Program-made: the position numbers and the translations under genes | NCBI RefSeq assembly: GCF_014653785.1 | Contig: NZ_BNAS01000003.1 | Span: forward strand, 572,117-636,116 | DNA: 64,000 nt | Origin: Promicromonospora soli | Lineage (GTDB): Bacteria > Actinomycetota > Actinomycetes > Actinomycetales > Cellulomonadaceae | Direction of reading: 5' to 3' | In this document: positions 45,216-46,812 of the stretch, piece by piece | Layout: the number at the start of each line of letters is the position of its first letter | Position numbering within the stretch: position 1 is the stretch's first letter | Notes under the pieces: generated by a model | Told to the model about the DNA's origin: nothing | The model's input: only the letters and a program-made list of their open reading frames with translations | The model's database searches: none

Positions 45216-46301
45216 GTGGCTCTCACTATCGGCATCGTCGGCCTGCCCAACGTCGGCAAGTCCACCCTCTTCAACGCTCTGACCCGCAACCAGGTGCTCG
45301 CGGCGAACTACCCGTTCGCGACGATCGAGCCCAACGTGGGGGTGGTCTCGCTGCCCGACGAGCGGCTGACCAAGCTCGCCGAGATCTTCGGGAGCCAGCG
45401 GATCCTGCCGGCCACGGTGTCGTTCGTGGACATCGCGGGCATCGTCAAGGGTGCGTCCGAGGGGGAGGGCCTGGGCAACAAGTTCCTCGCGAACATCCGC
45501 GAGGCGGACGCGATCTGCCAGGTCACCCGCGCGTTCGACGATCCTGACGTCGTCCGGGTCGACGGCTCCCAGGACGCCCCCGGCGACATCGAGACCGTCT
45601 CCACCGAGCTCATCCTGGCCGACCTCCAGACCCTCGAGAAGGCCCTCCCGAGGATGGAGAAGGAGGTCAAGATCAAGCGCGGCGACCCCGTCCTCTACGC
45701 TGCCGCGAAGAAGGCCCAGGAGATCCTGGACCAGGGCATCACGCTCTACCAGGGCGCCGCCGACGCCGGCCTGGACCTGGCCGAGATCGCCAGCCTGCAG
45801 CTGATGACGGCCAAGCCGTTCATCTACGTCTTCAACACGGACGACGACGGCCTGGCGGACACCCAGTCCCAGGAGGCGCTGCGCAAGGTCGTCGCGCCCG
45901 CCCAGGCGATCTTCCTGGACGCGAAGTTCGAGTCGGAGCTCGTCGAGCTCGAGCCCGACGAGGCCGCCGAGATGCTTGCCGAGTCCGGCCAGGCGGAGTC
46001 CGGCCTGGACCAGCTCGCGCACGTCGGCTTCGACACGCTCGGCCTGCAGACCTACCTCACGGCGGGCCCCAAGGAGACGCGTGCCTGGACCATCCACAAG
46101 GGCTGGACCGCCCCGCAGGCCGCCGGCGTGATCCACACCGACTTCGAGCGCGGCTTCATCAAGGCCGAGGTCATCTCGTTCGACGACCTCGTAGAGACCG
46201 GCTCCGTGGCCGGGGCAAAGGCGGCTGGAAAGGCCCGTATCGAGGGTAAGGACTACGTTATGCAGGACGGCGACGTCGTTGAATTCAGGTTCAACGTTTA
46301 G
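45216..46301 (+). CDS. ychF: ribosome-binding ATPase YchF (Obg family)
   Basis: 361 residues from GTG 45216. Switch features: G1 GLPNVGKSTLF, G3 FVDIAGIVKGASEGEGLGNKFL, G4 replaced as usual in YchF (ATP-preferring), and a C-terminal TGS domain. A -10 hexamer TAAACT (45202-45207) overlaps the upstream stop codon and ends 8 nt before the GTG; the transcript may be leaderless. The last ~28 codons use many AT-ending codons (GTT, GAA, AGG, TAG) rare in the rest of the gene. The final ten codons plus stop (46269-46301) recur 469 nt downstream with native-style codons, so the 3' end looks replaced by an insertion. Confidence 0.95.
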   Translation: MALTIGIVGLPNVGKSTLFNALTRNQVLAANYPFATIEPNVGVVSLPDERLTKLAEIFGSQRILPATVSFVDIAGIVKGASEGEGLGNKFLANIREADAICQVTRAFDDPDVVRVDGSQDAPGDIETVSTELILADLQTLEKALPRMEKEVKIKRGDPVLYAAAKKAQEILDQGITLYQGAADAGLDLAEIASLQLMTAKPFIYVFNTDDDGLADTQSQEALRKVVAPAQAIFLDAKFESELVELEPDEAAEMLAESGQAESGLDQLAHVGFDTLGLQTYLTAGPKETRAWTIHKGWTAPQAAGVIHTDFERGFIKAEVISFDDLVETGSVAGAKAAGKARIEGKDYVMQDGDVVEFRFNV

Positions 46302-46383
46302 TTACCTCGTGAAAAGGGAAAGTTCCACGGGAGGTTTGGTCCACATTGGCCGGCTCTTGCCGCAAGAACAGGAGAGTAGCCCT

Positions 46384-46731
46384 GTGAAAAAGTTCATCAC
46401 GGTCATCCTGGTGGCCTTTGGCCTCGTCGTTGGCGGACTCGTCGCGTCGGCGCCCGCCCAGGCCATCGTCGGGAGCAGCGTTCACTTCTACGAGGTGAGC
46501 GACGGTATCCCGTCCGACTGGATCAAGCTGCACAACACCGGAACCGGGGGTACCGAGTATCTCCAGTCGTTCGCCACGACGAGGGGCAACGTGCGCGAGT
46601 CGTGTCCCCCGAACGACAACTACTACCTGTACTACACGAATCCTGCCGGTGCTTTCAACAGACTGAACCCTGGCGTGTGTCTGGTTCCGATCCGGACCGG
46701 CACGTACTCCGTAGGCATCGCTCGAGCCTGA
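46384..46731 (+). CDS. small secreted protein of unknown function (inserted cassette)
   Basis: 115 residues. GTG start at 46384 after AGGAGAG. A clear signal peptide (KKFITVILVAFGLVVGGLVA … APAQA, cleavage near residue 27) is followed by an ~88-residue mature domain rich in Tyr, Asn, Gly and Thr, with two cysteines (ESCPPN, GVCLV) that could form a disulfide. I do not recognise the domain; it resembles small beta-rich secreted proteins. It is the only gene between the two copies of the ychF 3' end. Base use is less GC-biased than in neighbours, which suggests acquisition. Confidence 0.75.
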   Translation: MKKFITVILVAFGLVVGGLVASAPAQAIVGSSVHFYEVSDGIPSDWIKLHNTGTGGTEYLQSFATTRGNVRESCPPNDNYYLYYTNPAGAFNRLNPGVCLVPIRTGTYSVGIARA

Positions 46732-46737
46732 CAGCCA

Positions 46738-46770
46738 GGCGACGTGGTGGAGTTCCGCTTCAATGTCTGA
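46738..46770 (+). pseudogene. displaced second copy of the ychF 3' end
   Basis: Eleven codons translate to GDVVEFRFNV and stop, identical in protein to the ychF C-terminus at 46269-46301. Seven codons differ, all synonymously: GTG, GTG, GAG, CGC, AAT, GTC, TGA here against GTC, GTT, GAA, AGG, AAC, GTT, TAG there. The copy here uses mostly GC-ending codons and is followed by a terminator, so it is probably the original native end. It has no start and is not expressed on its own. Confidence 0.85.
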
Positions 46771-46776
46771 GCATCA

Positions 46777-46812
46777 CCCGGATCGCGGCATGTCCAGAGG
46801 TCGCGATCCGGG
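46777..46812 (+). terminator. terminator, probably the original ychF terminator
   Basis: A perfect 11-bp stem, CCCGGATCGCG (46777-46787) with CGCGATCCGGG (46802-46812), lies 6 nt after the displaced ychF stop codon and far from the functional one at 46301. Confidence 0.8.

Follow-up and report, generated by a model that had tools for sequence, protein, structure and literature searches.

Duplication of the ychF 3' end in Promicromonospora soli

In a 64,000-nt stretch of the genome of Promicromonospora soli (Cellulomonadaceae, Actinomycetales; contig NZ_BNAS01000003.1, positions 572,117 to 636,116; this whole stretch is hereafter the window), the 3' end of the gene ychF occurs twice. How did a second ychF end come to lie behind the first, and what is the short segment between them? 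A first-pass annotation had proposed that an element of ~469 bp, carrying its own ychF tail and one gene for a small secreted protein, was inserted here. The results below indicate that the segment is likely a non-autonomous cassette of a serine-integrase system that has the ychF 3' end as its chromosomal entry site.

GDVVEFRFNV followed by a stop codon is encoded at 46269–46301 and again at 46738–46770. Counting the stop, 7 of the 11 codons differ, all synonymously, as had been annotated; at the base level, the two tails differ at 9 of 33 positions. A 20-base degenerate tail pattern, GTNGARTTYNNNTTYAAYGT, has exactly two matches in the 5.38-Mb genome, on the same strand and 469 bp apart, and its reversed control has none. 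One 115-codon open reading frame (ORF) sits between the tails, and the hairpin described after the downstream tail was recovered as a strong fold (Table 1). Elsewhere in the genome, an unrelated reading frame terminates in a 66-bp piece of the ychF C-terminal region, 85% identical (L021, G000:C1:402414–402479; G and L numbers denote genomes and loci).

In seven congeners, ychF ends in similar native-style codons and runs into GAGCATC, the sequence found 3' of the second tail of the window (identity over the first 34 bases: 33 in L003 and L005, 32 in L010 and L014, 31 in L004 and L013, 30 in L009). Judged by this sequence comparison, the second tail is therefore the native ychF end, and the present end (46278–46301) corresponds to the right half-site of the cassette. 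Such empty sites support the proposed insertion, and other cargo between two ychF tails was seen in the arrays of other genomes.

The earlier proposal also attributed codons foreign to this genome to the insertion. The anomaly itself is real, with a G+C content at third codon positions (GC3) of 323/333 in ychF up to 46214 versus 15/21 in 46215–46277. However, the low-GC3 codons begin ~60 bp upstream of the duplicated stretch, to the left of the crossover defined below, so that the insertion alone did not rebuild this part of ychF and another event is needed to explain it. Some other arrays (G219, L273, L278 and L280) contain long pieces of the ychF 3' region, which shows that such fragments travel, and recombination of one of them with ychF might be conceivable.

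Table 1. Coordinates of ychF, the cassette and its recombination sites in the window
Feature	Position	Strand	Remark
ychF, 361 codons, entry site at last codons	45216..46301	+	Pfam YchF-GTPase_C and MMR_HSR1
ychF stretch with unusual codons left of the crossover	46215..46277	+	GC3 15/21
Left recombination site, −26 to +23 around GT 46278–46279	46252..46301	+	
Cassette, 469 bp, G+C content 0.595	46278..46746	+	GT-to-GT rule
Cargo gene, 115 amino acids, GTG start, probably secreted	46384..46731	+	signal peptide judged by eye
Right recombination site, −26 to +23 around GT 46747–46748	46721..46770	+	right half is the native ychF end
Displaced ychF terminator hairpin	46768..46822	+	−28.3 kcal/mol, z −3.2

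Arrays of ychF tails in other genomes

At least two tails were found in 25 of 221 genomes of the family, with all copies on one strand in each of the 25, and in 80 of 297 genomes of the order, 76 of these with all copies on one strand; the reversed control pattern gave no match in the 221 family genomes. Both tallies were counted by hand, the tail positions of the order sample are known in part, and some of them (such as those in G832, G867 and G891) look unrelated to arrays. The copies of G002 and G042 are spread over different contigs. Among 19 genomes reached via loci chosen for having a junction, one had a single copy and 18 had several, which in all 18 lay on one strand and one contig in one cluster.

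The arrays reach up to ten sites. The last codons of ychF itself formed the first site in 11 of the 12 named arrays having ychF in the stretch (the exception being Gulosibacter) and in 17 of 17 further arrays having it; in eight other stretches ychF lay outside the part fetched. As far as sequence can tell, the ychF-tail repeat of the window is one case of a widespread system. The scale of this system, the conserved left arm of its site and the crossover at GT, both described below, go beyond the first-pass annotation.

A junction site of about 50 bp

The junction site spans ~50 bp and consists of a conserved left arm and the tail. A logo built from 225 exact non-ychF matches (328 sites in all, 76 flagged as ychF) has information content from −26 to +23 relative to the GT at the start of the second Val codon, falling close to zero on either side. 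The left arm reads about AGAGGTTGNTCNGTNCCGGAAC and the core around GGTGGAGTTCC, with a dyad centred on the GT in which GGAAC (−8 to −4) is matched by GTTCC (+5 to +9). Several right-half positions of the logo are fixed by the search pattern, and 119 loci, among the matches listed, came from a pattern requiring CGGAAC. Because of this selection bias the left arm was rechecked in junctions that had been chosen without it, and it was conserved also in 41 family junctions of this kind. In 20 arrays of the order sample, 31 of 44 junctions scored above 10, versus 0.03% of 10,000 random positions; after removing three true ychF ends and four arrays apparently overlapping the training loci, 25 of 32 did so. 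The left arm had no match in the viral contigs, and a search of the 49-nt site against phages and plasmids gave no match covering 80% of the site.

Two variations of the site were also seen. A second partial tail, TTCCGNTTCAA, lies 24–29 bp downstream of the first in 13 of 298 sites (0 expected; for instance L041, L084 and L162) and might be an additional binding element or be left over from stacked insertions. Canonical left arms with variant tails, such as FRFSL or FRFAL in place of FRFNV, occur at 7136, 14370 and 15698 in G235 and at 12313 in G191.

Cassette boundaries, exchange between genera and cargo

Both ends were seen for 152 intervals from 101 loci, with a median length of 1357 bp (67–9974) and a median G+C content of 0.63. 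Some cassettes are nearly identical across genus boundaries, as seen between Brachybacterium massiliense and G217 (99.1% over 1313 bp), Kocuria carniphila and Ornithinimicrobium (99.8%, 3244 bp), K. carniphila and Gulosibacter sediminis (97.9%, 1392 bp), Microbacterium ihumii and Dermacoccus abyssi (99.5%, 1504 bp), and Arthrobacter sp. and Glutamicibacter ardleyensis (97.7%, 2926 bp).

Aligned pairs of this kind locate the boundaries. At the right end, five of nine pairs (L120/L169 second unit, L120/L159, L195/L187, L162/L179 and L084/L186) diverge from +2, straight after the GT; in three of the remaining four the divergence begins further into the tail, and the last, with the same neighbour in both copies, is uninformative. 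Left-end identity starts at the GT or one base earlier in L120/L169 (first unit) and L120/L159, L046/L155 is identical there up to one mismatch at +11, and the end of more diverged pairs is not sharp. The left and right ends combined place the crossover at the GT or within one base of it. The first-pass annotation had taken GGCGACGT to be the shared core; in its place, the shared functional core is the GT at 46278 and 46747 together with the right half-site.

Forty-one intervals form one cluster through shared sequence, many of its members being linked via a start read by eye as HigB with a HigA-like partner. Simple scripted gene calling, which may include some false ORFs, gave 127 cassette ORFs; their most frequent Pfam families (best 25 of 128) were HTH_3 (11), Acetyltransf_1 (7), TetR_N (5), HigB-like toxin (4) and Phd/YefM (3), followed by PIN, MFS, an aminoglycoside nucleotidyltransferase-like family and RCC1 repeats with 2 each. 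PADLOC models for AbiEi, AbiEii, GajA and Old match single cargo members.

Small cassettes, arrays mostly without an integrase, and cargo of orphan, toxin-antitoxin, acetyltransferase and defence genes would also suit an integron, in which the integrase IntI acts on attC sites. We regard this explanation as highly improbable, for two reasons on which it was dropped. The boxes of attC sites read RYYYAAC ... GTTRRRY, whereas at the ychF junction this order is inverted, GTT lying to the left and AAC to the right (logo read by eye). In addition, the IntI model TIGR02249 gave no score above its cut-off in 21 array genomes, of which two probably represent a single genome, in a comparison where 14 controls fail too and that has no positive control.

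Integrases beside the site

Large serine integrase genes start a short distance from the GT of the site in L081 (45 bp), L076 (36 bp), L183 (Nonomuraea lactucae, 26 bp) and G047 (73 bp). These four intact enzymes have 48–65% mutual identity, and the two scanned, those of L081 and L076, contain Resolvase (PF00239) and Recombinase (PF07508) domains. Integrase remnants lie immediately next to the last site in G247, G248 and G249 and the third of four sites in L276. Since the L081 contig also encodes terminase, portal and capsid proteins, at least one integrase carrier looks like a phage; a tyrosine integrase is encoded on this contig as well. A serine integrase gene directly follows ychF in G003; the site beside the serine integrase gene of G134 has a weak arm, and in G168 the gene and the site are 9 kb apart.

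Relatives of the serine integrase were found in six Microbacterium phages (40–44% identity); one of the Microbacterium phages, Percival, has no such site in the 9.4 kb read around its integrase gene. Plasmids gave no match at 1e-60, and in the viral contigs only the query itself matched. The nearest curated families are XisF and CcrB, both far below cut-off (best CcrB score 59.7–74.1 bits versus a cut-off of 900), and the nearest solved structure is integrase 9iu2 (E 2.7e-18).

At the G003 locus (L027, arm at 7976, + strand) the arm is joined to the ychF left half in inverted orientation and the last YchF residues are changed, an arrangement that may derive from an inverted insertion or from a later inversion through the near-palindromic site.

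Tyrosine integrases were met at the ychF end as well. In four Promicromonospora genomes, a 425-amino-acid integrase is encoded just past the ychF tail or the last array site (L003 in G010, L013 in G007, L024 in G002 and L026 in G003; 94–100% identical). The viral contigs L075, L077, L078 and L083 have a ychF tail beside a short tyrosine-type integrase (by eye), and Streptomyces phage Mulchroom (L264) has an annotated one beside its tail. A second, unrelated enzyme type thus appears to use the same ychF end. That such an enzyme moves the cassettes is nonetheless quite improbable: the Promicromonospora enzyme occurs at E≤1e-60 in 16 of 220 family genomes, and among the 25 multi-tail genomes only G002, G003 and G209 have it; unit boundaries at a 2-bp GT, with no more extended core in common, are better explained by a serine enzyme; and the phages of L075, L077 and L083 carry ychF sequence well to the left of the GT. 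Initially taken as the resident one, the Promicromonospora enzyme was dropped because most multi-tail genomes lack it. Further along in G002, beyond the tyrosine integrase, is a TrwC relaxase gene.

Proposed mechanism and the cassette of the window

The serine-integrase reading draws on the one-strand tail arrays, the ~50-bp junction site, the GT bounds of the units, the cassettes common to different genera and the integrase genes beside the site. In this scheme, temperate phages, or other elements that have this site, would provide a large serine integrase in trans, and a circular cassette would recombine with ychF at the GT in the middle of the VEFRFNV codons. The right half of ychF would be replaced by that of the cassette; since the latter re-encodes VEFRFNV and the stop codon, ychF would stay intact and the entry site would be formed again. 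Further cassettes could then enter the re-formed site, a tandem array would grow between ychF and its old end, and the cargo may be co-transcribed with ychF. Provided that the enzyme does not distinguish between the shared right halves, capture and loss would be one reaction.

A broader and more tentative idea, to which we give somewhat less than even chances, is that of a serine-integrase counterpart of the integron. One integrase would both capture and release cassettes with no separate excision factor, because cassette and chromosome share the right half-site; the ychF promoter would serve the first cassette, the enzyme would reside on temperate phages, and the cassette pool would be common to Actinobacteria.

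Several observations speak against the serine-integrase reading. Recombination itself was not observed. G215, G217 and G237 have ychF upstream of the array, its end having no matching tail, and ychF is missing from the 37 kb read for G047. The near-identical pairs L195/L187 and L162/L179 are mismatched at +2 or +5 at the left end, which may reflect gene conversion or subsequent changes. The integrase is rare, so that most arrays seen are without it: at E≤1e-40 it occurs in 20 of 220 family genomes (23 loci), and a site or arm lies within only 3 of the 23 loci (G047, G134 and G003); in a phylum sample, 1 of 396 genomes had it at 1e-70, with no site there. In G240 it is the 3' end of the integrase gene, not its start, that faces the site, ~460 bp off. 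As for the window, its cargo is unique, with no Pfam or NCBIfam match to the small protein, only weak matches of 17–22 bits in 220 family genomes and no relative in the fetched loci; and the left arm of its right site is eroded to a score of −1.8, the canonical arm being absent there. Scores of −1.8 or lower occur in 6.2% of array sites, and scores of −1.8 or higher in 0.4% of random window positions.

The eroded arm, the right site reading GGCGACGTG like ychF itself, the cargo having no relatives and the long ychF 3' fragments in other arrays would fit a separate old event outside the system, namely a local duplication or a recombination that captured a ychF tail. We consider such an origin unlikely, since both ends of the unit are in GT register, the cargo size fits and an empty site exists; moreover, other junctions (e.g. 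L028, L030, L038, L043 and L045) read GGCGACG before the GT too, and a 67-bp unit of G002 is similarly eroded (arm score −9.4). Of the features of a cassette of the serine-integrase system, the window unit has the GT of two tails as bounds, a native right half and an empty site in relatives, but lacks the canonical left arm at its right junction. Its genome contains no ychF-type serine integrase at E≤1e-40, and mobilisation in trans, one of the options in the first-pass annotation, is likely. Given that integrase result and the eroded right arm, the window copy is probably an old, stranded, non-autonomous cassette.

Significance and relation to known systems

An array locus is present in about one tenth of one family and one quarter of the sampled genomes of one order. 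If true, genera would exchange whole cassettes of toxin-antitoxin, acetyltransferase, regulator, phage-defence and orphan genes by a route that tools for detecting integrons and prophages would probably overlook. The ychF 3' end could serve as a fixed address for finding new defence and small secreted genes, and the system may offer a new serine integrase with its site. To our knowledge, Actinobacteria are not known for integron-type gene capture.

By layout, the closest known systems are integrons, which likewise have tandem small cassettes, a single insertion point, cargo units without an integrase and sharing across genera; the ychF system differs in its serine-type integrase, its GT crossover, the lack of the attC box order and the lack of an IntI over the cut-off. 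cis-Mobilizable elements (CIMEs) and satellite-like elements mobilised in trans are larger derivatives of integrative and conjugative elements or phages. CIMEs resemble the ychF cassettes as tandem att-flanked units without their own integrase, whereas most ychF units hold one to three genes.

By mechanism, the closest are the SCC and ECC chromosome cassettes. These enter at the rlmH 3' end by Ccr large serine recombinases, and their att sites of ~50 bp have an inverted repeat in attR and in the circular form; 16 of 32 ECCs have several attR sites, and ECCs of 21–78 kb carry ccrAB and variable cargo (PMC6222049). On this basis, the systems are alike in a large serine recombinase (Resolvase and Recombinase domains) beside the site, though none was found in the window's genome at E≤1e-40, and in the 3' end of a conserved gene as entry, the ~50-bp sites with inverted repeat, the occurrence of several such sites and the variable cargo. 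They differ in the site, which is the ychF end and not the rlmH 3' end with its TATCATAA core; in the enzyme, which is not CcrA, CcrB or CcrC, one ychF-site integrase being only distantly like Ccr; and in the units, which have a median of 1.36 kb, mostly lack the enzyme and occur in Actinomycetota.

No account of ychF cassette arrays was found among the papers listed in the literature searches, which left most subscription papers and all preprints outside, so that novelty is unproven. The accessible part of the paper on the Mulchroom satellite has no mention of ychF (PMC10690885), and ychF together with integrase terms led, in the parts available, to papers on pneumococcal prophages (PMC8637289, PMC10383233).
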